Shown here one piece after another: positions 2,314 to 20,068 of a stretch of 20,639 nt of DNA. The stretch covers positions 1-20,639 of IMG/VR virus record IMGVR_UViG_3300042197_001330; one strand, given 5' to 3'. The position numbers were made by a program, and so were the translations under genes. The stretch comes from a virus. The stretch's first letter is position 1. The number at the start of each line of letters is the position of its first letter. The notes under the pieces were generated by a model. The model was given only the letters and a program-made list of their open reading frames with translations. It was not told the origin of the DNA and did not search any database.

Positions 2314-3069
2314 ATGACAACAAAAATAAGTTTGGAGGAATTGAATAAACAATTCTTCAGCGGAGAGCCATACAATCATGTGGTGATTGACAATTTTTTT
2401 GATGAGAAAACTGCTCAAGAACTCGCAGCAGAGTTTCCGAAGTTTGATGATCCGAATGTTTGGACAGTCTCTTACGATAACCCAGTAGAAAAAAAGAAAG
2501 CCTGTTCTCATTGGGATAAATTTCCACCAAAACTTTATTCATCGCTATTCTGGTTGTGTAGCGATGGTTTCTCATATACACTATCCAAGATTACAGGTAA
2601 AGAAAATATTGTTGCTGATTATGGATTGAATGGTGGTGGATTGCATATTCATGGTAATAAAGGTAAATTGAATATTCATAAGGACTATTCTGTTCATCCA
2701 AAACTTCCACTTAAAAGAAACTACAATCTTATCATATACATGACTCCTGATTGGGATTCGTCTTGGGGTGGAGGATTAGAACTTTGGAGTCATGATGCTG
2801 AAAGAAATCGCCCTAAAGAATTGGTTAAGACTGTAGAAAATAAATTTAATCGCGCAGTTATTTTTGATACCACACAAAATTCTTGGCACGGATTGCCACA
2901 AGAATTAACTTGCCCAGATCACGTGACTAGAAATAGTCTCGCGGTTTATTATCTTACTGAAATAGATGAAAAAACTGAACAACGTAAGCGTGCTTATTTT
3001 GTTCCGTACAAAGATCAAAACAATGATCCATCAATTGAACAATTTTGTATAGAGAGAAGTGGTTTATGA
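2314..3069 (+). CDS. 2-oxoglutarate/Fe(II)-dependent oxygenase, prolyl-4-hydroxylase-like
   Basis: A 251-residue protein with the signature of a 2OG/Fe(II) dioxygenase: a metal ligand pair H122-x-D124 in LNIHKDYS, a distal His H192 (NSWHGLP) and a putative 2-oxoglutarate-binding Arg R206 (TRNSLAVYY). The stretch YNLIIYMTPDW ... SWGGGLELW is the typical core strand pair. The family hydroxylates protein side chains or small molecules using O2 and 2-oxoglutarate. The substrate cannot be read here. Being first in a glycan operon and overlapping a glycosyltransferase by 4 bases (ATGA), it may hydroxylate a residue or sugar that is then glycosylated. TET/JBP-type base hydroxylation is possible in phages, but this protein looks more P4H-like. 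Confidence 0.85.
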   Translation: MTTKISLEELNKQFFSGEPYNHVVIDNFFDEKTAQELAAEFPKFDDPNVWTVSYDNPVEKKKACSHWDKFPPKLYSSLFWLCSDGFSYTLSKITGKENIVADYGLNGGGLHIHGNKGKLNIHKDYSVHPKLPLKRNYNLIIYMTPDWDSSWGGGLELWSHDAERNRPKELVKTVENKFNRAVIFDTTQNSWHGLPQELTCPDHVTRNSLAVYYLTEIDEKTEQRKRAYFVPYKDQNNDPSIEQFCIERSGL

Positions 3070-3812
3070 AAGTAACAGTCATAACTCCAACAACAGGAAA
3101 TATATTTCTTGGCGAATGTATTGAATCTGTTAGAAAACAAACTTATAAGAACGTAGAACATATCGTAGTTGTTGATGGACACAGTCGATGGGAACAAACA
3201 AGTGAGGTATTGAATGCAGCGGAATTCCCAAATGGAACGAACCAGCATATCTGCATACTACCCTATCCTACAGGCACTAACCGTTACAACGGTCATCGTG
3301 TGTACGGTGCTGCTACTTATTTCGCAGATGGCGATTATCATATCTGGTTAGATGATGATAATGCATTAGAACCAGATCATATCGAAAAACTTGTAAAACT
3401 TGTTCAAGAAAAACAATTACACTGGGCGTTCTCCTTCAGAAAAATTATCGACAAAGATAGCAACGTATTGTGTCTTGATGATTGTGAGAGCCTAGGACTA
3501 TGGCCATCCATTTTGCACGAACAAGATTATTTCGTTGACGTAAATTGTTACTTTGTGAAAAAAGAAGTTGCTGTTGCGATGAGTACAGTTTGGTATCGTA
3601 AGTTCCGCGAGCCAGGTCAGATGGAGATCGATCGTGCGATTGCGTCAGTCCTTATGTCAAAACAAAACAACTTAAAGTTTGACTGTACTAGGGATTATAC
3701 GGTAAAATATAGAGTCGGCAATACTGGTCTATCAGTACAAGCAGACTTTTTCTTGCGTGGTAATGAAGAAATGCTACGAAGGTATAATAACAAGTTACCT
3801 TGGAAATCATAA
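3066..3812 (+). CDS. Glycosyltransferase family 2-like (GT-A fold)
   Basis: A 248-residue protein starting at ATG 3066 (ATGA overlap); a longer frame would run 21 bases further into the oxygenase gene. It shows the GT-A opening strand VTVITPTTGN, a helix (FLGECIESVRKQTY), IVVVDGHS, and a metal/nucleotide-sugar motif D96-D97-D98 in YHIWLDDDNAL, preceded by GHRVYGAATYFADGD. These are hallmarks of family 2 inverting transferases that move sugar from a nucleotide-sugar. Donor and acceptor are unknown. There is no membrane helix, so it acts in the cytoplasm on a soluble or peripheral acceptor. The intact Asp motif contrasts with the next gene. Confidence 0.85.
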   Translation: MKVTVITPTTGNIFLGECIESVRKQTYKNVEHIVVVDGHSRWEQTSEVLNAAEFPNGTNQHICILPYPTGTNRYNGHRVYGAATYFADGDYHIWLDDDNALEPDHIEKLVKLVQEKQLHWAFSFRKIIDKDSNVLCLDDCESLGLWPSILHEQDYFVDVNCYFVKKEVAVAMSTVWYRKFREPGQMEIDRAIASVLMSKQNNLKFDCTRDYTVKYRVGNTGLSVQADFFLRGNEEMLRRYNNKLPWKS

Positions 3813-3813
3813 T

Positions 3814-4695
3814 ATGAAAGCACTTAAAATTGTTGTCACACACGTTCGGAATGAGGAATATCTACTTCAATGGTGGATTCCTCATCACGCAAAGAAGTTT
3901 GATTTCGGTGTTGTAATTGATTATGGTTCAACTGATCGGTCAATGGAAATGTTCAAAGAACTAGTTCCCCATTGGCAAATTATTCCATCAAGAAATAAAG
4001 ATTTTAATGCATTAAATTGTGATATTGAAGTTTTTGAAATTGAAGGAGCCATATTTAATCAGTTGCGGCAACAAGGAAATCCATTTGCTCCTTGGGTAGT
4101 TGCCTTGAACTCAACTGAGTTTTTGATTGGTGACACTGATAAACTTCGACCGCTCACATTTCGTAGCCAAAAGTTTTTGGCTTGTGATATTATGGTTGAT
4201 CGACCAGAGCAAGAAGGTATCGAACCAGATGTAACAAAACCATTGGTTGAACAACGGACACACGGCATTGCATTAGAATATGATAATTGTCGTAATGATC
4301 CATATGCAAGTAGAATTGATCAAATAGCATACGCTCGCGCAGCATCTGATCCAGAGTTTCACAAAAATGTGCACTTCTCTAATCGCGTTATGAGAAGTAT
4401 GCATAACTTCAATTTAAATTACATGGAAACATCGATGTATGGAACTGGTCGACATTACTGGGCGACACCATGCGAAGACTTTAGAATTGCTTGGTATGCC
4501 TATGCGCCTTATACTGATAAGATGCTTCAGCGTAAAATGGCAATTCAACATCAAATTCCATTAGTTGATCGTCAAGCTGGTCGTGGACCATCTCACTATA
4601 TAGATGAAGTGAAAGCAAAACGTCGTTTGGAATTTCACCAAGAGTTTGCTACTGACTTGAATTCTCTTTATAATAATTTGGAAAATAAATCATGA
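3814..4695 (+). CDS. Glycosyltransferase-like protein (Glyco_tranf_2_4 type) with altered Asp motif
   Basis: Start ATG 3814 lies one base after the previous stop; an in-frame ATG at 3757 would overlap the previous gene and is rejected. The protein has 293 residues. The N terminus (IVVTHVRNEEYLLQWWIPHH, then VVIDYGSTDRSMEMF) matches the GT2 subgroup usually opening with 'RNE...W..HH...G' and 'D..S.D.S'. At the expected Asp-x-Asp-Glu-Phe site the protein reads L98-N99-S100-T101-E102-F103, so both metal-binding Asp residues are replaced. It may bind metal differently or be non-catalytic. The end overlaps the epimerase by 4 bases (ATGA). Confidence 0.75.
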   Translation: MKALKIVVTHVRNEEYLLQWWIPHHAKKFDFGVVIDYGSTDRSMEMFKELVPHWQIIPSRNKDFNALNCDIEVFEIEGAIFNQLRQQGNPFAPWVVALNSTEFLIGDTDKLRPLTFRSQKFLACDIMVDRPEQEGIEPDVTKPLVEQRTHGIALEYDNCRNDPYASRIDQIAYARAASDPEFHKNVHFSNRVMRSMHNFNLNYMETSMYGTGRHYWATPCEDFRIAWYAYAPYTDKMLQRKMAIQHQIPLVDRQAGRGPSHYIDEVKAKRRLEFHQEFATDLNSLYNNLENKS

Positions 4696-5621
4696 GTATA
4701 ATTGGCGAAAGTTTAAAATTTGATCCGACCCCAGGAAAGGTATTGCTTATTGGTGGTTGTGGATATGTTGGTTCAGCGATATACGAAGAAATCAAAGATA
4801 GATATATTGTTGATACTGTAGATTTAGAATGGTATGGTAATTTCAATAATCCAAAAAACCTCAAAGAAGATTTTGGTTATCTTCATGAGTATGTTCTGCA
4901 GCAATATGAAACTGTAATTATTGTTGCCGCCAACTCATCAGTTCCTATGTGCAAAAATATTTGGAGCACGTTGGACAATAACATTGTTAAATTTTTGAAT
5001 GTTGTTGCAGAAATGAAACGCCCTGGGCAACGTTTAATCTACGCATCTAGTTCTTGCGTATACGTTGAGTCTAGTGATAAACCAATGGCAGAAGATCAAC
5101 CATTGGTTCCGAATGATGGTTTGACTCTTTCTAAAACCATTCTCGATTACACTTTACCACTACTCGATGTTGAGTATTATGGTTTAAGATTTGGTAGCGT
5201 GAATGGTTGGGCGCCAAACATGCGTACAGATTTAATGATTAATTCGATGACTCTTTCAGCAATGAAAGATAAACAAGTCAATGTGTTTAATGCCAAGGCT
5301 CATCGTCCAATCGTTTCTACTCATGATCTTGCTCGTGCCGTTTTAGCGATTCTTGATAACAGAGAAGATAATCGCGGTATCTATAATGTAGCCTCATTCA
5401 ATATGAATATTGGTGATGTCGGTCAGCGTGTTGCTGATTGTATGGGTGTTCCGCTTGTAGATAAAGGAACGAGCCAAACATATGACTTCATGGTTTCATC
5501 CGAGAAGTTTAAAAAGACGTTCAATTTTGAATTTACAGGAACCGTTGAATCTATTGTTGATTCAATTGTTACTAAACCTTTCAACAAACTATGGACTAAA
5601 AGAGAGAAGAATTTCCTATGA
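4692..5621 (+). CDS. NAD(P)-dependent epimerase/dehydratase (extended SDR) lacking the catalytic Tyr
   Basis: A 309-residue protein with a Rossmann nucleotide-binding loop GGCGYVG (21-27), an acidic strand end (VDTVDLEW), VAANSS (79-83), a catalytic-type Ser segment YASSSCVY (117-124) and C-terminal substrate-domain features (YGLRFGSVNGW, HRPIVSTHDLARAV, YNVAS). In the normal Tyr-x-x-x-Lys site it reads L144-T-L-S-K148: Lys is kept, Tyr is Leu. Extended SDRs epimerise, dehydrate or reduce nucleotide-sugars; without the Tyr the chemistry may differ or use another acid. It sits between a glycosyltransferase and the C-methyltransferase, overlapping both by 4 bases (ATGA at each junction). Confidence 0.85.
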   Translation: MSIIGESLKFDPTPGKVLLIGGCGYVGSAIYEEIKDRYIVDTVDLEWYGNFNNPKNLKEDFGYLHEYVLQQYETVIIVAANSSVPMCKNIWSTLDNNIVKFLNVVAEMKRPGQRLIYASSSCVYVESSDKPMAEDQPLVPNDGLTLSKTILDYTLPLLDVEYYGLRFGSVNGWAPNMRTDLMINSMTLSAMKDKQVNVFNAKAHRPIVSTHDLARAVLAILDNREDNRGIYNVASFNMNIGDVGQRVADCMGVPLVDKGTSQTYDFMVSSEKFKKTFNFEFTGTVESIVDSIVTKPFNKLWTKREKNFL

Positions 5622-6862
5622 AGAAAAATGATCATTGTTTAGTTTGTGAAACACCAGTTAATATTCAATATCTAGATTTAACAGATCAGCCACTGGCTAA
5701 TTCTTATCATAAGGGTGGAGCACTTGGAGCAGGACTGGCGCGATATCCACTTCAAATGTTGGTGTGCGATAATTGCTGGCACTCACAACTCTCAGTCTCT
5801 GTGCCACCTGCTGAAATGTTCGAACACTATCTATACGTTTCTGATACAAGTAGAACGCTAACTGAATATTTTGAATGGTGCGCAGATTATATTTTAAAGA
5901 ACGTTCTAGAACAACCTAAAAATGTTTTAGAAATTGCATGTAACTCTGGTCTATTTCTAGAGATGTTTAAGAAGCGCGGATTACAATGCGTTGGTGTTGA
6001 TCCCGCAGCAAACTTGAGAGAAATGACTCTTGAGCGTGGATTAGATGTATATGTTGATTACTGGAATCAACAATTCTCAGAAAAGGTTAAAGAGGAAAAG
6101 GGTAAGTTTGATCTTATCCTTGCGTTCCACGTTTTGCCGCACGTCGAAAGTCCAAATGATTTTATTCGTTCGTGTAAAAACGTTTTGTCTGATACAGGAA
6201 CCGTCTTTATTCAAACTTCCCAATGCGATATGTTCTTGAATAATGAATTTGATGTTATCTATCACGAACACTCATCATACTTTACGGCTCGTTCTATTCA
6301 AGAACTCGCTCATCGAAATGGTTTGTATGTTTCGAGTATCATTAAAACGGATATTCATAGTAAATCATTCTTGTTTGCCCTACAGCAATTGCCATGTGAA
6401 GAAACACAACTTAACGCATTGATTGAGCAGGAAGAAGAAGATAACATTTATACCATCACCAAGTATTTTGATTTTGCGGCTCACGCAGAATATACTCGTA
6501 ACACGTTGATTCAAAATCTTGATAAGTTTAAGAGGCAGGGTTATACATTAGTTGGGTATGGCGCTGCCGCTAAAGGCAACACGTTATTAAACTATATGCA
6601 ATACAAGTTAGATTTTATTATCGATGATAACCCACTCAAGCATGATTACCTTACACCTGGTATGAATATTCCAATCACATCTATTGATTTGATTGCAGAT
6701 AACAAGATTGAAAAGGTTTGCTTCATTCCATTGGCTTGGAACTTCTACGCTGAAATTAAAGAGCGTATCAATGAAGTTCGTGACACCAAGAACGATGTAT
6801 TTGTGAAATACTTCCCTGAATATTATGAAGAAGGCGAAATCTTTCCTAGAATAACGCAATGA
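5618..6862 (+). CDS. Nucleotide-sugar C-methyltransferase, TylC3/NovU type
   Basis: A 414-residue protein with the three-part build of dTDP-hexose C-methyltransferases: an N-terminal zinc-binding domain (C7-x-x-C10 and C50-x-x-C53), a central SAM-binding Rossmann domain (VLEIACNSGLF, about 103-113; VGVDPA), the family's His-Glu-His motif (YHEHSSYF, H216/E217/H218) and a C-terminal domain with GYGAAAKGNTLLNY (313-326). Length is typical (about 410). Known members transfer methyl from SAM to C3 of dTDP-4-keto-6-deoxy sugars, using the His-Glu pair as base. The RmlA/RmlB genes further right could supply such a substrate. Coupled by ATGA overlaps on both sides. Confidence 0.9.
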   Translation: MKKNDHCLVCETPVNIQYLDLTDQPLANSYHKGGALGAGLARYPLQMLVCDNCWHSQLSVSVPPAEMFEHYLYVSDTSRTLTEYFEWCADYILKNVLEQPKNVLEIACNSGLFLEMFKKRGLQCVGVDPAANLREMTLERGLDVYVDYWNQQFSEKVKEEKGKFDLILAFHVLPHVESPNDFIRSCKNVLSDTGTVFIQTSQCDMFLNNEFDVIYHEHSSYFTARSIQELAHRNGLYVSSIIKTDIHSKSFLFALQQLPCEETQLNALIEQEEEDNIYTITKYFDFAAHAEYTRNTLIQNLDKFKRQGYTLVGYGAAAKGNTLLNYMQYKLDFIIDDNPLKHDYLTPGMNIPITSIDLIADNKIEKVCFIPLAWNFYAEIKERINEVRDTKNDVFVKYFPEYYEEGEIFPRITQ

Positions 6863-7824
6863 TTGTAGCATCGTGCCCTTTAAGAATTTCTCTGGTCGGT
6901 GGATCAACTGACCACCCAGAATTTTTAAAAAGATATGATAGAGGAGCTGTTATCAGCTTCCCTTCTAATCTGCGCACATATATCACAATCCACAGAGACG
7001 TTTTCGGCATCAATACGATTGATGAGAATTATAATTTAAACTATTCCCGTCGCGAAACTGTAAAGAACGTATCAGATATTCAAAATGAAATGCTACGGCA
7101 TTGCTTCGAGTATCTAAATGTCGAACGTATCAATTGCAGTTTAGTATCTGATATTTACTCGGCTGGCTCTGGTTTGGCTGCATCTTCTGCATATCTACAA
7201 GCACTTATCAAAGCCATTCACGTTTGGCGTAATGAACCCATCACTGAATTTGAGGTATGTAAAATTGCGGAGAATGTCGAAAGAAAGTTTAATCCGTTAG
7301 TGGGTCAACAAGATTTTTATGGTAGTATGGGTGGACTCAAGCGCATAAACTTCTTCAAAGACTCTGATCCACAATTTAGATATCTTGATACGAAGATATT
7401 TGATTCAATGGATATTCATCTACTATATACAGGCGTGCTACGCAACTCGACTAAAGTATTGGAAAGCATCGACGTATCAAAGTGTGAAGTATTGATATCT
7501 GATGTCAGAAATCTAGAGCAAGCAATATGTAAGACTGATGTTGACGCTTTCAATAGTATAATGAAAAAGTCTTGGGAAAATAAAAAGAAAACAAGCAAAT
7601 TAATTTGCGAGAACGAAGTATTAGTTGACTTGGATAACAAATTAAGTTATGATAGTAGAGTGTTGTCGCATAAGTTATGCGGAGCAGGTAATGGGGGCTA
7701 CTTTTTGATATTCTCTAATAAGAATTCTTGCCTTGAAAAAGAATATGAGAGATGTTCGAAGATTAGCATATCTGAAACTGGTTTGAAGTATGTGAACTTA
7801 ACAAATGAATTTACAAGAACTTAA
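6859..7824 (+). CDS. GHMP-family sugar kinase, HddA-like (D-glycero-D-manno-heptose 7-phosphate kinase type)
   Basis: A 321-residue GHMP kinase. It has the N-terminal motif PLRISLVGGSTDHP (7-20), the ATP-binding loop GSGLAASSA (103-111), VGQQDFYGSMGG with putative catalytic Asp D152, and the C-terminal glycine motif GAGNGG (275-280). The opening 'PLRISL.GG.TD' and 'QQD.YG...GG' are characteristic of HddA and related anomeric heptose or fucose kinases. HddA phosphorylates heptose 7-phosphate at C1 for GDP-heptose synthesis. The next two genes, a GmhA-like isomerase and an HldE-like nucleotidyltransferase, support a heptose route. Substrate is inferred from neighbours; fucokinase-like activity cannot be excluded. 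It overlaps the isomerase gene by 20 bases. Confidence 0.85.
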   Translation: MIVASCPLRISLVGGSTDHPEFLKRYDRGAVISFPSNLRTYITIHRDVFGINTIDENYNLNYSRRETVKNVSDIQNEMLRHCFEYLNVERINCSLVSDIYSAGSGLAASSAYLQALIKAIHVWRNEPITEFEVCKIAENVERKFNPLVGQQDFYGSMGGLKRINFFKDSDPQFRYLDTKIFDSMDIHLLYTGVLRNSTKVLESIDVSKCEVLISDVRNLEQAICKTDVDAFNSIMKKSWENKKKTSKLICENEVLVDLDNKLSYDSRVLSHKLCGAGNGGYFLIFSNKNSCLEKEYERCSKISISETGLKYVNLTNEFTRT

Positions 7825-8305
7825 AAATTGTTTAGACGGTATTGATAAAGAACAATTGTATTGCTTGGGTGTTACTATTCATCGACACAAGCATATTATT
7901 CTTTTGGGTAACGGTGGCAGTAATGCGATCACAGGTCATGTTGCCCAGGATTACACTAAAGCATTGGGTAAGAAAGCAATTTGTTTCTGCGATTCCTCGC
8001 GTTTAACTTGCTATGCTAATGACTATGGTTGGGAGCATGCTTATACTAAATTCCTTGAGCAGTTCGTTGAGCCTGAATCATTAGTGATTCTAATTTCATC
8101 ATCTGGTAATTCGCAGAATATTCTGAACGCTGCACAATTCTGTGCTGATCGTAAACAGCCGATGATTACTCTGTCTGGGTTTGATCCAGATAACAAACTC
8201 AGAACTCAATTTAGAACTCATTCGTTTGCGCATTTTTATGTTCCTAGTAAGGATTATGGTATTGTTGAGTATCTCCACGGAATTATTCTACACTCAGTCA
8301 TATGA
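7805..8305 (+). CDS. SIS-domain sugar isomerase, GmhA-like (phosphoheptose isomerase type)
   Basis: A 166-residue SIS domain with phosphate-binding loop GNGGSNA (35-41), SSSGNS (98-103) and a C-terminal helix carrying H158 (VEYLHGIILH). GmhA converts sedoheptulose 7-phosphate to D-glycero-D-manno-heptose 7-phosphate. By alignment from memory, the GmhA HFAEE catalytic segment corresponds to H45-V-A-Q-D49 here, so the base would be Asp instead of Glu; SIS proteins with '..H.A.D.TK' also occur in other surface-sugar clusters. It is shorter than GmhA (about 190), mainly at the N terminus. Kinase and nucleotidyltransferase neighbours, both overlapping, suggest one pathway. Confidence 0.85.
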   Translation: MNLQELKNCLDGIDKEQLYCLGVTIHRHKHIILLGNGGSNAITGHVAQDYTKALGKKAICFCDSSRLTCYANDYGWEHAYTKFLEQFVEPESLVILISSSGNSQNILNAAQFCADRKQPMITLSGFDPDNKLRTQFRTHSFAHFYVPSKDYGIVEYLHGIILHSVI

Positions 8306-8775
8306 TTTTTAGTAGATTAATTGAGTTAAAGAAACAGGGTTTAAAAATTGGCATCACCTTTAGTCAGTTTGATTTGCTACATGCAGGTCATATTGCTATG
8401 CTTGCTGAAGCAAAAGAACACTGTGATTTTTTAATTGTTGGTTTACAAAACGACGCTAGTTGGGATAGACCAGATAAAAACTCACCTGTTCAGAGTATTG
8501 TCGAACGTCAAATTCAATTGAGCGCAGTTAGGTTCGTTGATGAGATAGTTGTGTATAATACAGAAAAAGATCTAGAAGATATATTATTAACTCTACCATT
8601 AGATGTACGCATTCTTGGTGAAGAATATATGAAGAAAGAGTTTACAGGTAGAGCAATTTGTGAATTGCGTGGAATTGAATTAATATTCAATCGTCGTGAT
8701 CATAGTTTTAGTTCAAGCGGATTACGCCAACGTGTGGTAGAATCGCAAGCCAAGAAAACACAAAAGGAATTATAA
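8302..8775 (+). CDS. Sugar-phosphate nucleotidyltransferase of the HIGH superfamily (HldE C-domain/TagD-like)
   Basis: A 157-residue cytidylyltransferase-like protein with ITFSQFDLLHAGH (18-30; the HxGH motif is H27-A-G-H30), LIVGLQNDAS (44-53), SIVERQIQLSAVRFVDEIV (65-83) and ILGEEY followed by the closing SSSGLR (137-142). The fold joins a sugar or polyol phosphate to a nucleotide: HldE makes ADP-heptose from heptose 1-phosphate, TagD makes CDP-glycerol. Following a heptose-type kinase and isomerase, activation of a heptose 1-phosphate is the favoured role; CDP-glycerol synthesis is the alternative. Coupled to the isomerase by ATGA and to the next gene by TAATG. Confidence 0.85.
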   Translation: MIFSRLIELKKQGLKIGITFSQFDLLHAGHIAMLAEAKEHCDFLIVGLQNDASWDRPDKNSPVQSIVERQIQLSAVRFVDEIVVYNTEKDLEDILLTLPLDVRILGEEYMKKEFTGRAICELRGIELIFNRRDHSFSSSGLRQRVVESQAKKTQKEL

Positions 8776-9491
8776 TGAAAATTTGTATAGCATCATATTA
8801 TATGAATAACATCGACCCCAAAACAGTCGAGTTACAGAAAAAGGTTATTGAAAAATTCAATCCATTAAATATTCCTCATTTATCTATGAGTGGTGAAATT
8901 TCACACGCTATGTTCATAGATTATGTTTGGGCGTTAAATGGTCAACCACCAGAATCAATGAAGCAGCATAATATTAAAAGAGAACTTGATTTTGATGCAG
9001 TTCTTTTCTTAGATATTGATTGTGTGCCTTTGAATGATAAAGCATTACAAATTTATTTGAGTCGTGCAGTAGAAGGTGTTATTATTGGTAATGCACAGCG
9101 ATCAAGTCATTTGAATAATAACAATCATCTGTTCGCTGCTCCATCTGCTATTGCGCTTTCATGTGCAACGTTTGATAAAATTGGACGACCATCTGCATTA
9201 GAAACTGCTCGATCAGACGTTATTGAAGAATATACTTGGGCAGCTGGTGAAGCAAATGTTGAAGTAGAATTAGCGTTGCCTACAAAATATGATGGTGATG
9301 TTTATCGTTACCCATATGAAAAAGATCGTCGTCCTTATTGGACATTAGAAAATGGATTGCCTAATTATGGATTAGGAACGACCTTCGGCAGTGAAGGCGT
9401 TGGTGACTTGTTCTGGCACAATTTTCAAATCTTCCTGCCAGGTCAACAAGAACGTTTTTGGAAGAAATGTGAGGAATTATTGAATGGCTAA
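8775..9491 (+). CDS. Glycosyltransferase-like protein, GT-A type, 238 aa
   Basis: A 238-residue protein with a GT-A-like first strand (MKICIASYYM) and a clear D80-I-D82 motif in FDAVLFLDIDCVPL, typical of metal-bound nucleotide-sugar sites. The C-terminal half carries HLFAAPSAIALS, EYTWAAGEANVEVEL and a Trp/Phe-rich end (LFWHNFQIFLPGQQERFW). I associate this overall pattern with uncharacterised T4-like phage proteins. No standard GT2 second motif is evident, so it may be a divergent family. It closes sugar island A: TAATG coupling upstream, 8-base overlap with a small phage gene downstream. Confidence 0.7.
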   Translation: MKICIASYYMNNIDPKTVELQKKVIEKFNPLNIPHLSMSGEISHAMFIDYVWALNGQPPESMKQHNIKRELDFDAVLFLDIDCVPLNDKALQIYLSRAVEGVIIGNAQRSSHLNNNNHLFAAPSAIALSCATFDKIGRPSALETARSDVIEEYTWAAGEANVEVELALPTKYDGDVYRYPYEKDRRPYWTLENGLPNYGLGTTFGSEGVGDLFWHNFQIFLPGQQERFWKKCEELLNG

Positions 9492-9690
9492 TCGTAGTGA
9501 TTTTTTTAATGCTAAACTCCCACGCCAATATAAGCGCATGTTTGCAATGGCAAAAACTAATGGTTGGGTGAAAGACTCTCATGAGTATGGCATGCTTAAA
9601 CGTTATTTCATTTCGGCGCACGCAGAACATGTTGGCTTTAAAATGAAACGTAATACAGTTGATACTCGCGACGTATCAGATAACTCATAA
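9484..9690 (+). CDS. Small hypothetical phage protein, 68 aa
   Basis: It starts within the last codons of the transferase gene, behind a GAGGAA-type Shine-Dalgarno (about 9471-9476). The product is basic with aromatic residues (MANRSDFFNAKLPRQYKRMF, then HEYGMLKRYF) and looks like a small RNA- or DNA-contacting helical protein. I have an impression of similar 'MA.(R/K)SDFFN..LP...KRM' proteins in T4-like phages, but no function. Its stop TAA shares a base with the next ATG. Confidence 0.7.
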   Translation: MANRSDFFNAKLPRQYKRMFAMAKTNGWVKDSHEYGMLKRYFISAHAEHVGFKMKRNTVDTRDVSDNS

Positions 9691-12735: not shown

Positions 12736-12741
12736 TATAAT
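12736..12741 (+). promoter_or_regulatory. Possible -10 element upstream of uvsX
   Basis: A perfect TATAAT lies in one of only two real gaps in the window (12729-12768), followed by GGAG (12757-12760) and the uvsX ATG at 12769. No good -35 is seen at 16-18 bases (AGTTTT/TAGTTT), and TTTACA (12720-12725) is too close. It may therefore be an activator-dependent (middle-type) promoter or a chance AT-rich match. Confidence 0.4.
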
Positions 12742-12768
12742 ATCTAAACCATACATGGAGATACAATT

Positions 12769-13824
12769 ATGAGCCTACTCGAAAAATTGAAGAAAAATTC
12801 TACAATTAAAGATACTGCTATTCTTGCTAAATCAAAATTCTTTGCTGCCAAGGACATGATCCAGACAACTATTCCCGTTGTGAACGTTGCGTTCTCTGGT
12901 GATTTAGATGGAGGATTTACTCCTGGTCTTACGATGTGGGCTGGTCCGAGTAAGCACTTCAAAACTGCATTTAGCCTTTTGATGGCAAAGGCATATCAGG
13001 ATAAGTATCCCGAATCAGTTGTTTTGTTTTATGACTCAGAGTTTGGTACTCCACAAAACTATTTTACCTCATTCGGAATTGATATGGAGCGTGTAATTCA
13101 TACTCCTATCACTGACGTTGAGCAGTTGAAGTTTGATATTATGCAGCAGTTGAGTAACATTGAGCGCGGCGAACGTGTGATGATCGTCATTGATTCTATT
13201 GGCAACCTTGCTTCTAAGAAAGAAGTTGAGGATGCGCTTGATCAGAAGTCAGTTGCTGATATGAGTCGCGCAAAGCAAATAAAATCCCTGTTCCGTATGG
13301 TGACCCCACACCTCACCCTTAAAGACATTCCTATGGTTGTAGTAAATCATACCTATAAGGAAATCGGTATGTTTCCCAAGGATATTGTTGGTGGCGGAAC
13401 AGGTTCCTATTACTCGGCTGATAACATTTATATTCTAGGAAGGCAGCAGGAAAAAGATGGACAGGATCTTATTGGCTATAATTTCATTATCAACGTCGAA
13501 AAATCTCGCTACGTTCGTGAGAAGGCTCGCATACCTGTCACTGTTCGTTTCGATGGTGGCATTAGTAAGTATAGTGGGCTTCTTGATATGGCTCTTGAGT
13601 CTGGTCATGTAACCAAACCTAGCATGGGTTGGTACGCAAAAGTTGATCGTTCAACTGGCGCAATTGATGGTAAGAAATGGCGCGCAGCAGACACAGAGTC
13701 CGCAGAATTTTGGGATAGTATTCTTGAAGATGATGGATTTAAACAATGGGTGCGCAGCACTTATCAATTCAGTTCTGCACTTGGAGGTAATTTGACAACC
13801 GAGGTCGTGGAAGATGATGAATAA
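12769..13824 (+). CDS. uvsX: UvsX recombinase (RecA/RAD51 family)
   Basis: A 351-residue T4-type RecA protein. Walker A is GPSKHFKT (59-66), the UvsX version of the P loop (T4 has GPSKSFKS). A catalytic-type Glu is E91 in LFYDSEFGTP, Walker B is VMIVIDS (137-143), and VVVNHTY (190-196) is the switch segment contacting the nucleotide. The C-terminal region is acidic and ends in EDDE, as in T4. UvsX forms ATP-dependent filaments on single-stranded DNA, pairs homologous DNA and drives recombination-dependent replication. It has a good Shine-Dalgarno (GGAG) and its own possible promoter; its end overlaps the next gene by 11 bases. Gene order 43-uvsX-40-41 supports the assignment. Confidence 0.97.
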   Translation: MSLLEKLKKNSTIKDTAILAKSKFFAAKDMIQTTIPVVNVAFSGDLDGGFTPGLTMWAGPSKHFKTAFSLLMAKAYQDKYPESVVLFYDSEFGTPQNYFTSFGIDMERVIHTPITDVEQLKFDIMQQLSNIERGERVMIVIDSIGNLASKKEVEDALDQKSVADMSRAKQIKSLFRMVTPHLTLKDIPMVVVNHTYKEIGMFPKDIVGGGTGSYYSADNIYILGRQQEKDGQDLIGYNFIINVEKSRYVREKARIPVTVRFDGGISKYSGLLDMALESGHVTKPSMGWYAKVDRSTGAIDGKKWRAADTESAEFWDSILEDDGFKQWVRSTYQFSSALGGNLTTEVVEDDE

Positions 13825-14350
13825 GATTCGCGATTTAATTGCCAAAGTTGAATTTTTGTACGCAACCAAGTTTATACAACTCGATACACATTATACTTTC
13901 TTTTTAGATTTAAATGGTCCAGCGGGATCATTTGCAGTTAAATTTCTTAAAAAGTATGATGGAATTATTGTTGAGTATACCGACGTTACAGTTGGTGAAA
14001 ATGGATTACTAACATTTAATTATGATGTAATCTCAAATGTAAATAATTGTAATGTGAAATCTAAATCGTTTGAACGCTTTACTCGAAACGTAATGCGTAA
14101 TATGATTTATGGTGCTGTGAAAAATTTAGAGAAGGATTTGAATGAAAACGGAAAACTTGATTCTGTCGAATCTGATTCGCAACGAACCGTTCATGAGGAA
14201 GTCACTGCCGTTCCTCAAGAGCGAGTATCTAACCGAAAGCCACGAAAGAAAGCTGTTCGAGCAAATAAAAGAGTTCATTCTGAAGTACAACAGTCTGCCT
14301 CCAACAGCAGCGTTGGAAATCAGTCTGAGGGAGTCGACAAAACTTTCTGA
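13814..14350 (+). CDS. Gene 40-position protein (candidate head vertex assembly chaperone), 178 aa
   Basis: It lies between uvsX and the helicase, where T4 has gene 40 (head vertex assembly), so that role is suggested by position only. Residues 1-110 look like a folded domain (LIAKVEFLYATKFIQLD, YTFFLDLNGPAGSFAVKFLKKYDG, FTRNVMRNMIYGAVKNL). Residues from about 110 to 178 are disordered and charged (ESDSQRTVHEEV, NRKPRKKAVRANKR, SASNSSVGNQSEG) and are encoded in the 209 bases shared with the helicase start in another frame. T4 gp40 is about 114 residues, so the extra tail is notable. Two ATGs (13814, 13817) are possible starts. I could not confirm homology to gp40 by residues. Confidence 0.75.
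   Translation: MMNKIRDLIAKVEFLYATKFIQLDTHYTFFLDLNGPAGSFAVKFLKKYDGIIVEYTDVTVGENGLLTFNYDVISNVNNCNVKSKSFERFTRNVMRNMIYGAVKNLEKDLNENGKLDSVESDSQRTVHEEVTAVPQERVSNRKPRKKAVRANKRVHSEVQQSASNSSVGNQSEGVDKTF
14142..14350 (+). other. 209-base dual-coding stretch (gp40-position gene / helicase)
   Basis: Both frames are open here: the tail of the 13814-14350 gene and the first 69 codons of the helicase. Helicase coding is supported by similarity to gp41 and a Shine-Dalgarno; the other frame gives a low-complexity, charged tail. This is by far the longest overlap in the window (the next is 68 bases). Confidence 0.8.
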
Positions 14351-15521
14351 AGTTGAGTTAAATAAGTCTCTTGAACTGCTGAAGGAAGTAGCAAGTGACA
14401 AATCAGAACAAAAACTTGAATGGCTTCTTGACACTACAGAAAAGTTTTGCCAAGAAAAAGCAATCTATAATGCTATCATGGACAGTATTCAGATACTGGA
14501 TGGCAAAGATCAAGCGCGTGGCAAAGGAAGTATTCCTGCTCTTTTGTCTGATGCTCTTGGCGTCAGTTTCGATCCTCATATTGGTCACGACTTTTTGGAT
14601 TGCTACGCTGATCGCTACGATTTCTATCATCGTATCGAAAAAAGAATACCCTTTGATCTTGAATATTTCAACAAGATTACTAAAGGAGGACTTCCGCAAA
14701 AGACCCTTAACATTGCTCTTGCAGGTACTGGCGTCGGCAAGTCTCTTTTTATGTGTCACGTGGCTGCTAGTTGCCTGGTTCAAAACTACAACGTACTTTA
14801 CATAACTCTTGAAATGTCTGAAGAGAAGATTGCTGAGCGTATTGACGCCAATCTTCTAAACGTCACCATCGATGATCTTATGTCTATGCCTAAAGACATG
14901 TATGAGAAACGTATGGGTAAACTTCGCGAAAAGGTCAAGGGTAAGTTGATCATTAAAGAATACCCAACTGCCTCTGCTAATCCTGCTCACTTTCGGGCAT
15001 TAATTAATGATCTTGCATTGAAAAAGAATTTTCGTCCAGATATTATTTTCGTCGACTACCTAAATATCTGCGCATCTGCAAGAATTAAGGCTGGCGCAAA
15101 TGTTAATTCCTACACCTACATCAAAGCCATCGCAGAAGAACTTCGTGGGCTTGCCGTCGAAAATAACGTGCCGATTGTCTCGGCAACTCAAACGACAAGG
15201 TCGGGGTTTTCGAATTCAGATCCTGGTCTGGAAGATACTTCCGAGTCTTTTGGTTTGCCTGCTACTGCTGACTTCATGTTTGCACTCGTTAGCACTGACG
15301 AACTTCAACAATTGAATCAGTTACTCGTGAAACAGTTGAAGAATCGTTATAATGATCCGAATCTTCATAAGCGATTTACAATTGGAGTTGATCGAGGTAA
15401 AATGAAATTGTATGATCTTGAACAAAAAGCCCAAGATGCCGTGATGCAAGAAGTTGAATCCAAACCTGTGTTTGATCGTGGGCGTGGCTCGACTGACAAA
15501 TTTAAGAATCTAAAGGTCTGA
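14142..15521 (+). CDS. 41: Replicative DNA helicase, DnaB/T4 gp41-like
   Basis: A 459-residue hexameric helicase (T4 gp41 is 475). The N-terminal domain matches gp41 in pattern (ILSNLI, then PFLKSEYL), so ATG 14142 is the start, and AAGGA (14132-14136) lies 5 bases before it. Walker A is AGTGVGKS (194-201), a catalytic Glu sits in ITLEMSEE (E224), and Walker B is IIFVDY (301-306). Other shared blocks are VGHD-like IGHDFLDCYADRYD, SYTYIKAIAEELRGLAVE, VSATQTTRSG (sensor Gln) and GLPATADFM. It unwinds DNA 5'-3' ahead of the polymerase and works with primase. The first 209 bases also encode the tail of the preceding gene. Next gene coupled by TGATG. Confidence 0.96.
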   Translation: MKTENLILSNLIRNEPFMRKSLPFLKSEYLTESHERKLFEQIKEFILKYNSLPPTAALEISLRESTKLSEVELNKSLELLKEVASDKSEQKLEWLLDTTEKFCQEKAIYNAIMDSIQILDGKDQARGKGSIPALLSDALGVSFDPHIGHDFLDCYADRYDFYHRIEKRIPFDLEYFNKITKGGLPQKTLNIALAGTGVGKSLFMCHVAASCLVQNYNVLYITLEMSEEKIAERIDANLLNVTIDDLMSMPKDMYEKRMGKLREKVKGKLIIKEYPTASANPAHFRALINDLALKKNFRPDIIFVDYLNICASARIKAGANVNSYTYIKAIAEELRGLAVENNVPIVSATQTTRSGFSNSDPGLEDTSESFGLPATADFMFALVSTDELQQLNQLLVKQLKNRYNDPNLHKRFTIGVDRGKMKLYDLEQKAQDAVMQEVESKPVFDRGRGSTDKFKNLKV

Positions 15522-16141
15522 TGAAACTTGCAAAAATAGAAAAAAAAGTTTACACTCTTTCCAAAAATTGGATTGGCGAAAAACACATACCTTCTATTAT
15601 TCGTGGACTTAAAAAAGCATTCAAGCATAACATCGTAACATTTTCCTCTGAAAGATACGATTCAGAATATTATAAAGATCATAGTGTTATTGTAAATGCG
15701 CATTACTGCAATCGCATTTCAGATATAATCCCAGAGCATATCTATATTCAGTTAAACTTTCCTAGAGATTCTAAAAAAGCAATCATAACTGAAAAGGGCG
15801 CAAAAAATCTGGCTGTGAAGATTATTCGCACCATACATCATGAGTATCGTCATAAGCATCAGCAAAAGCAACGACCATTCCTGCTACAAAAGCCATACTC
15901 TCCAAGACCCAAACAGAACAAACTGAAGGCTATGTATTATGGGAATCCAGATGAACTAGATGCTCACGCATATGAAACTCAGGCTGAGAAACTAGATATA
16001 AATAAACTCAGAGCAGCGCATAAAATTCGTTGGGCTGAATGCGAAGCAATTTTTATGTATCGTCAAACTTTTAGAAAACAAGATCCTAAAGTTTGGCATA
16101 AATTTTTGAAGAAAGTGTATAAAAATGGCACAAATATTTAA
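15521..16141 (+). CDS. Putative HExxH zinc metallopeptidase-like protein, 206 aa
   Basis: A 206-residue basic protein. IIRTIHHEYRHKHQ contains H107-E108-Y-R-H111, a HExxH zinc-binding motif, and a downstream ELDAHAYE (E145, D147) sits where a third ligand Glu/Asp would be expected. There is no signal peptide or membrane helix, so it would act inside the cell. Many T4-like phages carry uncharacterised proteins with an HExxH-like pair and a '.PDELDAHAYE' block; a protease role is inferred, and a zinc-binding structural role is possible. Coupled to the helicase by TGATG and overlapping the next gene by 17 bases. Confidence 0.7.
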   Translation: MKLAKIEKKVYTLSKNWIGEKHIPSIIRGLKKAFKHNIVTFSSERYDSEYYKDHSVIVNAHYCNRISDIIPEHIYIQLNFPRDSKKAIITEKGAKNLAVKIIRTIHHEYRHKHQQKQRPFLLQKPYSPRPKQNKLKAMYYGNPDELDAHAYETQAEKLDINKLRAAHKIRWAECEAIFMYRQTFRKQDPKVWHKFLKKVYKNGTNI

Positions 16142-17375
16142 ACCAGATCAATTGTTGGGAAATAAACTATCGTTTGAATCACCAAGCGAATTGTATACCC
16201 ACACAAAAAATAAAATCAAATCAAACGTCCAGATTCCAGAAGCATTTAAAGTTTTGATGACATCCCTTTTAGACTATTGTCATAAAGGAAGCGTGTATCC
16301 CGACAAGAAAGTTTGGGAAGCCGCCGAGAAAAGTAAACAAAATAAATCAACTGGCGTTACCGTGGCTGCTTTAGAAACTGATTTTGCGGAAATCCTAGGA
16401 CCGCTAATGCTTGCGGTAAAAAATCCATCGAAGTATGGCGCATTAAGAAATAAAACATGGTTGTCATTTCCAAGTGCTGGTAACGAGGGTATGTATGATT
16501 ATCTTCTAAACGGTGCCAAGTATTCTGCAAAGGCTGGAAGTTCAAAAGCAAGCAACGTAGTAGGATTAGCTGAGTTAACTGCTCAAGCAGGTTTTAATGA
16601 TTTAGCAAACACAATTGAAAAACAAATGTGCGAAGCCGTTGCCAAATCAGATTCGACATTATATCAACCTATCGATGCTGTAATGTTTTTAATTTCAAAG
16701 AATATTCCATTACCAAGTATTAATGCGGCTAAATTCAAAAGAGGATATAAGTCTGGTCTTGGTCCAAATTCAGTAATCCCTAAAGACTGGATTGAGATTG
16801 CTGCGAAAGATAATGTTGTTAGCGAATATTTTGACGAAGGTAAAGTTAAACCAAAAATTTTAGCCGTTGGCAAGATTAAAACCGTAATGTCAAATGTTCT
16901 GACATTAGATAAAGTCTCAAAACCATCTGGCGCGAAGTATGCTAAATCAGTAGAAGTTTCCAGTAAAAACGATTACACAAATCTTTATATTAGAGTACTA
17001 GGAACTTCAGCTGAAGGTGAAAAGATTGCATCTTATAATGCAGGTCAAAAGAAAGCAACATTACAATCTGCAAATAAGACATTGACTAAAGGTTCTAAAA
17101 TTGAAATATATACAAAGAATACTGACGCTATTACAACCAAATTAATATCTGGTATTTGTGCAGACGAATTAGCAGAAATGTGTGATGGAATCAATTCTAC
17201 TTTAGATTTTACTGATGTGATGTCAATATTTGCTCCAGTATTTGTTAAGGTTAAACTTGGCACAACATCAGCTGACGTCGCTGTAGATCCAAAAAGTAAG
17301 AAAGTTATTCGTAATAAAAATCACCCAACTAACCCAAGAGGTATTGTAAGAGGTAAATTGGGTATTCAACCATAG
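16125..17375 (+). CDS. Phage protein of unknown function, 416 aa
   Basis: A long clean frame with normal composition. Visible landmarks: a helical N terminus (1-50), TWLSFPSAGNEGMYDYLLNG (111-130) leading to YSAKAGSSKASN (133-144), KFKRGYKSGLGPNS, and a strand-rich C-terminal half with TNLYIRVLGT, GSKIEIYTK and MSIFAPVFVKVKLGT. The central 'Gly-Asn-Glu...Tyr-Asp-Tyr...Ser-x-Lys-Ala-Gly' block suggests a binding or nuclease-like site, but I cannot place the family. It could be structural (the beta-rich end resembles a virion or internal-head protein) or enzymatic. It ends 11 bases before rmlB, so it borders the second sugar island. Confidence 0.75.
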   Translation: MAQIFKPDQLLGNKLSFESPSELYTHTKNKIKSNVQIPEAFKVLMTSLLDYCHKGSVYPDKKVWEAAEKSKQNKSTGVTVAALETDFAEILGPLMLAVKNPSKYGALRNKTWLSFPSAGNEGMYDYLLNGAKYSAKAGSSKASNVVGLAELTAQAGFNDLANTIEKQMCEAVAKSDSTLYQPIDAVMFLISKNIPLPSINAAKFKRGYKSGLGPNSVIPKDWIEIAAKDNVVSEYFDEGKVKPKILAVGKIKTVMSNVLTLDKVSKPSGAKYAKSVEVSSKNDYTNLYIRVLGTSAEGEKIASYNAGQKKATLQSANKTLTKGSKIEIYTKNTDAITTKLISGICADELAEMCDGINSTLDFTDVMSIFAPVFVKVKLGTTSADVAVDPKSKKVIRNKNHPTNPRGIVRGKLGIQP

Positions 17376-17386
17376 TATGAGGCTTT

Positions 17387-18337
17387 ATGACTGTATTTGT
17401 GACTGGTGGTTTGGGATTTATTGGTTCTAATTTTGTAATCTCGCACCTTAAAAAATATCCTAGCGACACGGTAGTCGTCATTGATAATCATTCCTATGCC
17501 GCGAATGGAAGCAATCTTAATGGATATTGGGAAGATTATCGTCTAGAGGTCAAGCATTGCGATATTCGCAATCTTGGTATGCTGGAGAACTTGTATGCGG
17601 ACTACATCCCTTCTCACACTTTTCATTTTGCTGCTGAATCTCATGTGGATAACTCCATTCGTGGCGATAATATTTTTGTCGATACAAACATTATCGGAAC
17701 TCACAATATTCTCAAGTGTATTAGGAAGGTCGGCGGGAAATTAGTTCACGTCTCTACCGATGAAGTGTATGGTAGTTTGGGTCATGATGATCCAGGGTTT
17801 ACTGAAAGCACTCCATACAATCCTCGCAATCCGTACTCCGCTACAAAAGCAGCCAGCGACCATTTAGTTCGCGCCTATGTTAATACTCATGGCGTTGAAG
17901 CAGTTGTAACCAATTGCTCAAATAACTATGGTCCACGCCAACATCCAGAAAAGTTTATCCCAACAGTCATTCGTCATATTAAGAATAATACACCTGTTCC
18001 TGTTTATGGTAACGGTGAAAATGTTCGCGATTGGTTATTCGTCGAAGATCATTGCGAAGCATTGCTAGCAATTAAAGAAAACTTCAATTCAGGCGAACGA
18101 TATAATATCGGTGGCGGTATTGAAATGAGCAACCTTCAAATGGTTACGCTCATTCTTGATCTAATGGGCAAACCAGTTCACATGTATCAGAACTGGATTA
18201 ATTTTGTACCAGATCGTAAAGGTCATGATTTTAGATATTCAATGGATGCAACTAAAATTGCATATGAGTTGGGTTGGCAAGCGAAAACGAATATTAATGA
18301 TGGATTAATTAAAACATTGGAGTGGTACAATGCATAA
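17387..18337 (+). CDS. rmlB: dTDP-glucose 4,6-dehydratase (RmlB)
   Basis: A 316-residue extended SDR with NAD motif GGLGFIG (7-13), the RmlB catalytic trio T124-D125-E126 in HVSTDEVYGS, Tyr-Lys pair Y150/K154 (NPYSATKAASD) and the substrate-binding block NNYGPRQHPEKFIP. All catalytic residues are present. RmlB oxidises, dehydrates and reduces dTDP-glucose to dTDP-4-keto-6-deoxyglucose, the branch point for 6-deoxy and C-methylated sugars. Slightly shorter than bacterial enzymes (about 330-360). GAGG precedes the ATG, and the gene overlaps rmlA by 8 bases. Confidence 0.93.
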   Translation: MTVFVTGGLGFIGSNFVISHLKKYPSDTVVVIDNHSYAANGSNLNGYWEDYRLEVKHCDIRNLGMLENLYADYIPSHTFHFAAESHVDNSIRGDNIFVDTNIIGTHNILKCIRKVGGKLVHVSTDEVYGSLGHDDPGFTESTPYNPRNPYSATKAASDHLVRAYVNTHGVEAVVTNCSNNYGPRQHPEKFIPTVIRHIKNNTPVPVYGNGENVRDWLFVEDHCEALLAIKENFNSGERYNIGGGIEMSNLQMVTLILDLMGKPVHMYQNWINFVPDRKGHDFRYSMDATKIAYELGWQAKTNINDGLIKTLEWYNA

Positions 18338-19202
18338 AGGAATTATATTAGCAGGTGGTCTTGGTACTAGATTGTACCCATGCACAGAGGTATTATCAAA
18401 ACAATTATTACCTGTATATGACAAACCATTGATTTATTATCCTCTATCGACGCTAATGCTTGCTGGTATTAGAGACGTTATGATTATTAATAACCCAAGT
18501 GATAGCGATCAATTCCAACGATTATTAAAAGATGGTTCCCAATTTGGTATGCGTATAACTTATTCAGTTCAACACGAACCGCGTGGAATTGCTGAATGTT
18601 TTCGTATTGCTGAGAAGTGGATTGGAAAGGATGACGTTACATTAATCCTTGGTGATAATTTATTTTACGGCAATGATTTAATTAATCGTTTAAATTATGC
18701 CAAAAATCACGTTGGGTGCACACTATACGCCTATCATGTGAATGATCCAGAAAGATTCGGTGTATTAAAACTGAATTCGACCAATGACCCAATTGAAGTT
18801 GTCGAAAAACCAACAAATCCTCCATCCAATTACGCTGTAACTGGATTATACTTTTTTGATAATCGTGTAATTGATTATAGTTATGCAATCAAACCTTCCG
18901 CTCGTGGCGAATTAGAAATTACTGATATCATTAATATGTACATAGCCGATTACACTTGTAATGTTGAGTTTTTAAATCGCGGCATTGCTTGGATTGATAC
19001 AGGTACGTTCGAATCATTGGCTGATGCTGCGACATTTGTTGGTTCTGTTCAACGTCGAACAGGTATGATGATAGCCTGTCCAGAAGAAATTGCATATAAA
19101 AATGCATGGATTACAATTGATCAATTAAAAGCATCAGCTGATATGTATAAAAAATCTGATTACGGTAAATATCTAGAAAGAATTTCAAATACGAGGTGGT
19201 AA
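18330..19202 (+). CDS. rmlA: Glucose-1-phosphate thymidylyltransferase (RmlA)
   Basis: A 290-residue nucleotidyltransferase, the usual RmlA length. It has the nucleotide loop GGLGTR (9-14), K24 in LSKQLLPVYDKP, the metal-binding Asp D109 in LILGDNLFYG, VVEKP, VTGLYFFD and RGELEITDI. It joins dTTP and glucose 1-phosphate to dTDP-glucose, feeding RmlB next door. At the RmlA nucleobase region the usual PDGLAQ is replaced by PRGIAE, a variant seen in some homologues, so nucleotide choice could be relaxed. The next gene's Shine-Dalgarno (ACGAGGTGG) lies in its last codons. Confidence 0.93.
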   Translation: MHKGIILAGGLGTRLYPCTEVLSKQLLPVYDKPLIYYPLSTLMLAGIRDVMIINNPSDSDQFQRLLKDGSQFGMRITYSVQHEPRGIAECFRIAEKWIGKDDVTLILGDNLFYGNDLINRLNYAKNHVGCTLYAYHVNDPERFGVLKLNSTNDPIEVVEKPTNPPSNYAVTGLYFFDNRVIDYSYAIKPSARGELEITDIINMYIADYTCNVEFLNRGIAWIDTGTFESLADAATFVGSVQRRTGMMIACPEEIAYKNAWITIDQLKASADMYKKSDYGKYLERISNTRW

Positions 19203-19204
19203 TT

Positions 19205-20068
19205 ATGAAAGAAATACTAAGAAAAAATATGAATATTTTAATTGTTGGTCGCGGTTGGACTGGCAGAAAGATGATGGAAGAACTTATACGTCGCGATCAT
19301 ATTGTTACAATGTGTTCGCATAAATTAGCCATTGAAGAGTTGGATAAACATCGTCATAGTTATGATTGGGTTATCAACTGTGCAGGTATGACAGGTTCGC
19401 CTAATGTTGACGCTTGCGAACTTGATCGCGAAGGAACTACTTACGCTAATGCAATTTTTCCAGCGTTTCTTTACAAGGCTGCAGTAATTTACAAGGCTGC
19501 AGTAAAAAATGAGGATAGCGAGTTTGGTTTGAATAGACTTTTTTGGGGAACTAGATTTGCACATTTCTCAAGTGGCTGCATCTATCAGGGTGAAATCAAT
19601 CATGTATATGATGATCCAAATTATTTCGGCAGTATCTATTCAGTTACCAAGGGTGTTTCTGATCTTTATCTAAAGGATCGTGCTCTTGTATTCCGTATTC
19701 GTATGCCATTTACTGGCGTCGATGAGAAGAAAAACTATCTTACGAAAGTAATCAATTATGCCAAAAATGGTAAGTTGATTGATTCAGGATTAAACTCATT
19801 AACAGATTTAGACGAAGCTGTTCGAGTTGCTTGTGATTTAATTGAAAAGAATGAAACAGGACCTGTTAACCTTGTTAATGATGGCTCAGTTACCATGCAT
19901 GAACTAGTAGAAATGCTTGGACTTGAGAATGTCAGCTGGTTTACGGAAGAAGAATTTAAAGCCGCCACATTGGCATCCCGTTCAACCTGCACTATTCCTT
20001 CGCATCCTGCTATGCGACCAGTTCGCGAGGCTCTCGAAGAGGCTATAAGAAAGTTGAAAAATACCTAA
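19205..20068 (+). CDS. RmlD-like NAD(P)-dependent sugar reductase/epimerase
   Basis: A 287-residue SDR, with ATG 19205 chosen for its Shine-Dalgarno GAGGTGG. A GTG at 19196 is too close to that site, and ATG 19229 begins the Rossmann strand directly but has no ribosome site. It shows GRGWTG (15-20), INCAGMTGSPNVD, FSSGCIYQG and the catalytic pair Y145/K149 (YSVTK). RmlD reduces dTDP-4-keto sugars; the position beside rmlAB fits that, but the N-terminal loop and overall sequence are divergent, so an epimerase is possible. No rmlC is seen. Residues 90-101 come from an exact 18-base tandem duplication. The gene's end carries the -35 of the following promoter. Confidence 0.8.
   Translation: MKEILRKNMNILIVGRGWTGRKMMEELIRRDHIVTMCSHKLAIEELDKHRHSYDWVINCAGMTGSPNVDACELDREGTTYANAIFPAFLYKAAVIYKAAVKNEDSEFGLNRLFWGTRFAHFSSGCIYQGEINHVYDDPNYFGSIYSVTKGVSDLYLKDRALVFRIRMPFTGVDEKKNYLTKVINYAKNGKLIDSGLNSLTDLDEAVRVACDLIEKNETGPVNLVNDGSVTMHELVEMLGLENVSWFTEEEFKAATLASRSTCTIPSHPAMRPVREALEEAIRKLKNT
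19470..19505 (+). repeat. Exact 18-base tandem duplication inside the RmlD-like gene
   Basis: TTTACAAGGCTGCAGTAA occurs twice back to back (19470-19487, 19488-19505). It keeps the frame and adds six residues (YKAAVI then YKAAVK). The unit contains the palindrome CTGCAG. It looks like a recent slippage or recombination event. Confidence 0.95.

Follow-up and report, generated by a model that had tools for sequence, protein, structure and literature searches.

Gene content of the locus

The viral record IMGVR_UViG_3300042197_001330 of IMG/VR is 20,639 bases long, and the entire record is the window analyzed here. It encodes about 30 genes on the + strand, and no tRNA genes were found in it. Two groups of sugar-biosynthesis genes, island A (2314–9491) and island B (17387–20068), lie on either side of T4-like replication genes. 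All island genes named in an earlier sequence-only reading of the window are in place on the + strand, full length and free of frameshifts, with the polymerase, UvsX and gp41 helicase genes between the islands. The families it listed were recovered with Pfam, NCBIfam and PHROGs, except that the third transferase of island A was recognized by its predicted fold and the last gene of island B, which it called RmlD-like, is of the NRS/ER type.

Island A
2314–3069, + strand: 2-oxoglutarate (2OG)-Fe(II) oxygenase of the prolyl-hydroxylase-like superfamily, optional (PF13640, 7.5e-15)
3069–3812, + strand: GT_A, GT2 glycosyltransferase, left part (PF00535, 2.4e-14)
3808–4695, + strand: GT_B, Glyco_tranf_2_4-type (GT2-type) transferase (PF13704, 3.7e-6, barely over the cut-off)
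4692–5621, + strand: extended short-chain dehydrogenase/reductase (SDR), candidate nucleotide-heptose C4-dehydrogenase (PF01370; best Protein Data Bank (PDB) match Cj1427, 6VO6, 1.1e-11)
5618–6862, + strand: sugar 3-C-methyltransferase, TylC3/TcaB9-type (Pfam Methyltransf_13, Methyltransf_23 and Methyltransf_14 domains; 4RV9, 3.8e-45)
6859–7824, + strand: HddA-like heptose-7-phosphate kinase of the GHMP family (PDB 4N3O, 6.4e-20, and 3K85; best family NF049969)
7805–8305, + strand: GmhA-like sedoheptulose-7-phosphate isomerase of the SIS family (TIGR00441, 3.2e-17; PDB phosphoheptose isomerases, 8e-12)
8302–8775, + strand: HldE-C/cytidylyltransferase-like nucleotidyltransferase (TIGR02199, 1.8e-21; PF01467)
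8775–9491, + strand: GT_C, predicted GT-A-fold glycosyltransferase, right end (AlphaFold2 pLDDT 92.4; no Pfam match)

Replication genes
10173–12728, + strand: DNA polymerase, T4-type (family search)
12769–13824, + strand: UvsX (family search)
14142–15521, + strand: gp41/DnaB-type helicase (family search)

Island B
17387–18337, + strand: RmlB (TIGR01181, 395 bits, above the equivalog cut-off of 365.1; STDEVYG motif)
18330–19202, + strand: RmlA, glucose-1-phosphate thymidylyltransferase (TIGR01207, 406.7 bits, above the equivalog cut-off of 360.65)
19229–20068, + strand: predicted NRS/ER (UGER)-type bifunctional 3,5-epimerase/4-reductase (PDB sequence matches, fold and residues)

Gene junctions overlap by 1–20 bases within each island; the exception is the last junction of island B, a 26-base gap if the third gene starts at ATG 19229, near which its relatives start (a longer open reading frame begins at GTG 19196). 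The overlapping, same-strand arrangement described earlier stands within the islands; a large unassigned gene (16125–17375) separates the helicase block from island B.

Island B encodes a predicted rhamnose pathway with an NRS/ER-type enzyme

The most interesting part of the locus is the third gene of island B, which encodes a type of enzyme described in plants and in giant viruses. By sequence matches, predicted fold and active-site residues, it is an NRS/ER-type epimerase-reductase and not RmlD. A search of its product against all PDB sequences at E ≤ 0.1 returned only Arabidopsis UER (4QQR, 2.4e-17) and Mimivirus L780 (7JID, 4.1e-15), and no RmlD chain. These two enzymes are bifunctional, each acting as a C3/C5 epimerase and a C4 reductase. 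The RmlD model TIGR01214 scored 24.4 bits, far below its cut-off of 224.05. The AlphaFold2 model (pLDDT 87.9) has 7jid and 4qqr at Foldseek ranks 1–3, with RmlD structures close behind. In L780, Cys108 and Lys175 are key catalytic residues, confirmed by mutagenesis (PMC9614988). They correspond to Cys117 and Lys173 of the phage protein, which, together with Tyr137 and Lys141, are invariant across phage homologues; bacterial homologues keep the cysteine in 79 of 79 sequences and the lysine in 75 of 79. The phage enzyme thus resembles UER and L780 in fold and in its Cys/Lys/Tyr/Lys active-site residues, at ~32–35% identity. Unlike them, it is paired with RmlA and a dTDP-type RmlB, and its substrate is probably dTDP-linked rather than UDP-linked.

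A profile built from the phage NRS/ER-type proteins gave 139 bits for UER and 39 bits for the classical RmlD of the phage genus Justusliebigvirus, which carries STDYVF at the place of SSGCIY in the NRS/ER-type proteins. Justusliebigvirus also provides the nearest phage counterpart of the pathway, the rmlB-rmlA-rmlC-rmlD set of the E. coli phage JohannJBalmer, whose RmlA and RmlB are 56% and 45% identical to those of the window. That dTDP-rhamnose set has four classical genes, whereas the window phage has a single NRS/ER gene in place of RmlC and RmlD. RmlC was absent from 15 records of relatives in the clade, and tblastn of the window and 130 phage loci gave no RmlC match. The NRS/ER-type gene had no match in 50,697 phage records, and we found no prior description of a phage NRS/ER, of cyanophage RmlA/RmlB or of a 3-C-methyl-heptose in the open-access literature.

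Judged by families and residues, island B would form a complete dTDP-L-rhamnose pathway. RmlA would make dTDP-glucose, RmlB would convert it to dTDP-4-keto-6-deoxyglucose, and the NRS/ER-type enzyme would epimerize C3 and C5 and reduce C4, the work of RmlC plus RmlD. The dTDP-type RmlA and RmlB point to dTDP as the probable nucleotide carrier.

Island B is near-constant in the clade: among 17 relatives that span it, RmlA is present in all, RmlB in 16 and NRS/ER in 15. A DegT-type pyridoxal phosphate enzyme, mostly with a further SDR, replaces NRS/ER after RmlA in two loci (L056, L070) or follows NRS/ER in others (L114–L121), which suggests a second 6-deoxy sugar branch.

NRS/ER homologues in bacteria

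A scan of 84,980 prokaryotic species yielded 506 candidate NRS/ER homologues, and neighborhoods were read for the best 80. Nearly all of these 80 come from Verrucomicrobia and Planctomycetes, with RmlB in 57 and RmlA in 53 of the loci, usually in the order NRS/ER-RmlB-RmlA. These bacterial clusters have the same three genes and catalytic residues as island B, in genomes mostly lacking RmlC; they differ in their usual gene order and in protein sequence (~30% identity), and the main phage clade forms a separate long branch. RmlC scored over its cut-off in 8 of 36 NRS/ER genomes (28 without) versus 11 of 14 control genomes, a difference that is supportive, not conclusive, as many are metagenome assemblies and possibly incomplete. 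The 80 loci include one phage contig of the present clade, L133, filed under a Chitinophagaceae metagenome-assembled genome. This 4.6-kb contig carries RmlB (92%), RmlA (78%) and DUF6267, and its binning reflects either contamination or a clue to the host.

In a phylogenetic tree, the main phage group is set apart on its long branch with full support, a second phage group is sister to bacteria of the Planctomycetes–Verrucomicrobia–Chlamydiae (PVC) group, and the plant and Mimivirus proteins cluster with one archaeal sequence. The root is not resolved, so we claim no direction of transfer. A 2011 study counted only four bacterial proteins related to the plant NRS/ER domain and gave the enzyme's origin as unknown (PMC3220709). 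Now that NRS/ER is on record from two distinct phage lineages, and from PVC bacteria in rhamnose clusters of three genes, many sequences are available for a study of this origin. In the second, distant phage lineage (L125, L126, L130, L132), NRS/ER adjoins a nucleotidyltransferase 48–53% like that of island A, and RmlA and RmlB are not nearby.

Island A is an exchangeable cassette

In island A, two invariant glycosyltransferases frame a set of genes that is exchanged among relatives. GT_A and GT_C each occur in all 32 relatives that span the site, and about ten different gene sets lie between them. The oxygenase is found in 17 of the 32 and directly precedes GT_A whenever present; GT_B or a distant relative occurs in 14. 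The SDR and C-methyltransferase, or distant relatives, are found in 6, and the GHMP kinase with the SIS isomerase in 4, although the set includes a few loci retrieved through the kinase and the true module frequency is probably lower. For retrieval of viral loci, the GHMP scan was more productive than the C-methyltransferase scan, which gave three only.

Other cassettes hold Methyltransf_24/rhamnosyl O-methyltransferase-like genes (PF04989 match), FkbM methyltransferases, epimerase/dehydratase genes and, in some, dehydrogenase-like genes identified by eye. Some relatives have a second methyltransferase, not present in the window, between the C-methyltransferase and the kinase. One cassette carries a RuBisCO-like protein (PF00016, 1.1e-41; L038:3456–4703, also in L037 and L069) together with a sugar nucleotidyltransferase-like gene and a cupin-like gene.

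Part of the window's own cassette has been exchanged recently, as judged by sliding DNA identity to the relative L028:

6859–8305, + strand: GHMP-SIS block, recently exchanged

This block is about 87–96% identical to L028 in DNA (mostly 91–96%), with flanks at ~55–80%; identity breaks where the kinase gene starts and declines across the nucleotidyltransferase. Protein identity is 94–96% in the block versus 80% for the polymerase. The nearest relatives of the two invariant transferases also conflict, as the phages nearest to the window in GT_A have a GT_C only 44–47% like that of the window. The exchange boundaries and this conflict indicate repeated recombination. Island A looks like a glycan locus shaped by recombination, much as an O-antigen cluster is, and strains would be expected to differ in a surface glycan; the heptose cassette probably gives the virus or its host a variable glycan coat.

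A candidate route to a C-methyl-branched heptose

The gene families support three proposals of the sequence-only reading: synthesis of nucleotide sugars by the phage, a route to heptose, and a 3-C-methyltransferase. Scores fall below the equivalog cut-offs for HddA (86 versus 600 bits), GmhA (63 versus 209) and HldE-C (76.5 versus 181.5), so we file the kinase, isomerase and nucleotidyltransferase as heptose-enzyme-like. The C-methyltransferase matches the mycarose 3-C-methyltransferase 4RV9 and the TcaB9 family, with which it shares the full-length three-domain architecture and a conserved IYHEH (YHEH) motif; the island A enzyme lies in a phage heptose cassette, whereas TylC3/TcaB9 enzymes lie in an antibiotic cluster. 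The oxygenase HxD...H...R motif is conserved in 21 aligned sequences. For GT_C, Foldseek matches are GT-A enzymes, including collagen hydroxylysine and PBCV-1 capsid glycosyltransferases, at low TM-scores (0.34–0.46 on the query) that support the GT-A fold level only.

The simplest reading of these families is that island A would supply a nucleoside diphosphate-linked heptose, oxidized at C4 and methylated at C3. The GmhA-like, HddA-like and nucleotidyltransferase enzymes would generate a nucleotide-heptose, the SDR would then probably oxidize C4, and the 3-C-methyltransferase would methylate C3 to give a C-methyl-branched heptose. The SDR is matched best by Cj1427, which oxidizes C4 of GDP-heptose using alpha-ketoglutarate (PMC10680097). 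Capsular heptose clusters of Campylobacter jejuni (GmhA2, HddA, Cj1427) likewise group an isomerase, a kinase and a C4-dehydrogenase-like SDR; island A differs from them by its HldE/cytidylyltransferase-type nucleotidyltransferase, the lack of a phosphatase, the added 3-C-methyltransferase and a Tyr-to-Leu change in the SDR. Synechococcus phage SynMITS9220M01 has a GHMP kinase (45%), an SIS isomerase (44%) and a nucleotidyltransferase (38%) like those of island A in a glycosyltransferase-rich island. That island differs in genomic place and partners, with no C-methyltransferase match in the region read.

Two probable sugar modules and their possible product

The arrangement is best explained, in our judgment with good probability, by two independently evolving sugar modules, a near-constant rhamnose module and a swappable heptose cassette, flanking T4-like replication genes. 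The sequence-only reading had instead joined the islands in one pathway, in which RmlA and RmlB feed dTDP-4-keto-6-deoxyglucose to the C-methyltransferase of island A to give a branched sugar. TylC3-family methyltransferases of known structure (mycarose enzyme 4RV9, TcaB9) act on dTDP-4-keto-6-deoxy sugars, and the phage has the two gene sets together. We nevertheless regard a single pathway as improbable. The RmlB product is already used by NRS/ER, and island A has a candidate 4-keto source of its own in the Cj1427-like SDR. The islands are both intact in the window, and in the comparison of gene order among relatives that had been proposed as a check they vary independently: relatives keep island B while about ten other cassettes replace island A. 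The SDR, C-methyltransferase, GHMP and SIS module is also carried by phage records, one of them 95 kb long, that gave no RmlA, so the substrate link is left unsupported; this is not proof against a shared substrate, as these records could be fragmentary and RmlA and RmlB could come from a host. In close relatives, moreover, the C-methyltransferase always adjoins heptose genes and the SDR. The islands may still feed one glycan, with constant rhamnose, constant transferases and variable tailoring. Slightly less probable again is that the last enzyme of island B performs C4 reduction alone or a single epimerization, leading to dTDP-6-deoxy-talose, dTDP-fucose or similar. SDR folds are shared, and RmlD structures rank just behind in the fold search, but no phage sequence of the set departs from the epimerase Cys/Lys pair, the cysteine is missing from classical RmlD, and the bacterial gene adjoins RmlB and RmlA in genomes mostly without RmlC.

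Several points weigh against the two-module reading as set out here. L780 takes UDP- and dTDP-linked substrates and prefers UDP (PMC9614988), so the nucleotide use of the phage enzyme is inferred only from RmlA and RmlB. L056 and L070 show no NRS/ER, the DegT-type gene adjoining RmlA there, and rhamnose is therefore not universal in the clade. In island A, the Tyr of the SDR YxxxK motif, present in Cj1427, is Leu in the window and in close module relatives, which makes the SDR chemistry uncertain. The position that we take to be the active-site Glu of GmhA aligns with Asp in the GmhA-like protein. No heptose-7-phosphatase (heptose bisphosphate phosphatase) was seen among the island A genes; the host presumably supplies it. 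The donors of the transferases and the acceptor, virion or host surface, are candidates only.

In the two-module reading, rhamnose would be the shared part of a glycan built by the invariant transferases, and the cassette would add variable sugars to it. The glycan would be displayed on the virion, more likely, and perhaps on residues hydroxylated by the oxygenase, or else on the surface of the infected cell. We prefer a virion protein as the putative acceptor because the prolyl-hydroxylase-like oxygenase, its motif intact, lies immediately before GT_A wherever it occurs; remodeling of the host envelope is almost as likely. A host-directed product, by which the phage enzymes remodel O-antigen or capsule, for example in superinfection exclusion, is a possibility that we rate below an even chance yet take seriously: genes for heptose, rhamnose, C-methyl and O-methyl groups are characteristic of clusters for envelope polysaccharides, and SynMITS9220M01 has a similar heptose/epimerase cluster. 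No flippase, polymerase, ligase or membrane-anchored transferase was identified in either island, and an oxygenase beside GT_A better fits a protein acceptor, though neither point is decisive. DNA, named as one possible acceptor in the sequence-only reading, is unlikely, and we give modification of the phage DNA very little weight. T4-type phages glucosylate their DNA, the islands adjoin replication genes and an oxygenase is present; however, the thymidylate synthase/hydroxymethylase family was not found in the records of 9 relatives, and the oxygenase matches 2OG-FeII_Oxy_3 and 2OG-FeII_Oxy_4, with no Tet_JBP match reported by the Pfam search. Swapping of cassettes is also usual for surface glycans, not for DNA marks. 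Sugar synthesis early in infection, also suggested before, gained no support from promoter searches: the T4-type late motif TATAAATA was seen once versus 2.0 expected, and promoter-like sites numbered 82 versus 71 in shuffled sequences.

A bolder and rather doubtful extension is that the locus acts as a phage serotype locus, in which a plant/giant-virus-type synthase would provide a constant rhamnose core on the virion, decorated by swappable cassettes (here an undescribed 3-C-methyl-heptose); the phage and PVC NRS/ER proteins would then belong to a prokaryotic pool at the root of the eukaryotic rhamnose synthase.

Relatives, host and the replication block

The window polymerase is ~52% identical to cyanophage polymerases and 77–86% identical to those of ~70 IMG/VR contigs, which places the phage in a group of uncultured relatives. 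Megablast against phages gave a single DNA match, 146 bases within the polymerase. None of 16 related records, of which one is 197 kb long, contained the psbA/psbD family (PF00124), so a photosynthetic or cyanobacterial host is not supported.

No test that was run supported the earlier naming of the 178-residue gene at 13814–14350 as gp40. This gene overlaps the helicase gene (14142–15521) out of frame by 209 bases, and all 45 relatives examined have an overlap of 119–209 bases in that relative frame. The slot between the gene at 15521–16141 and RmlB, occupied in the window by 16125–17375, is hypervariable: almost every relative has another gene there that looks unrelated to the rest (among them x040, x066, x091, x093, x134 and x050), several with D...ExK-like or SxK-like stretches. 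The polymerase-UvsX gap is a third entry site for transferase genes in part of the clade, where L007, L013, L017, L044 and L060 have insertions of genes resembling glycosyltransferases (x000) and of one for a putative membrane protein (x002).

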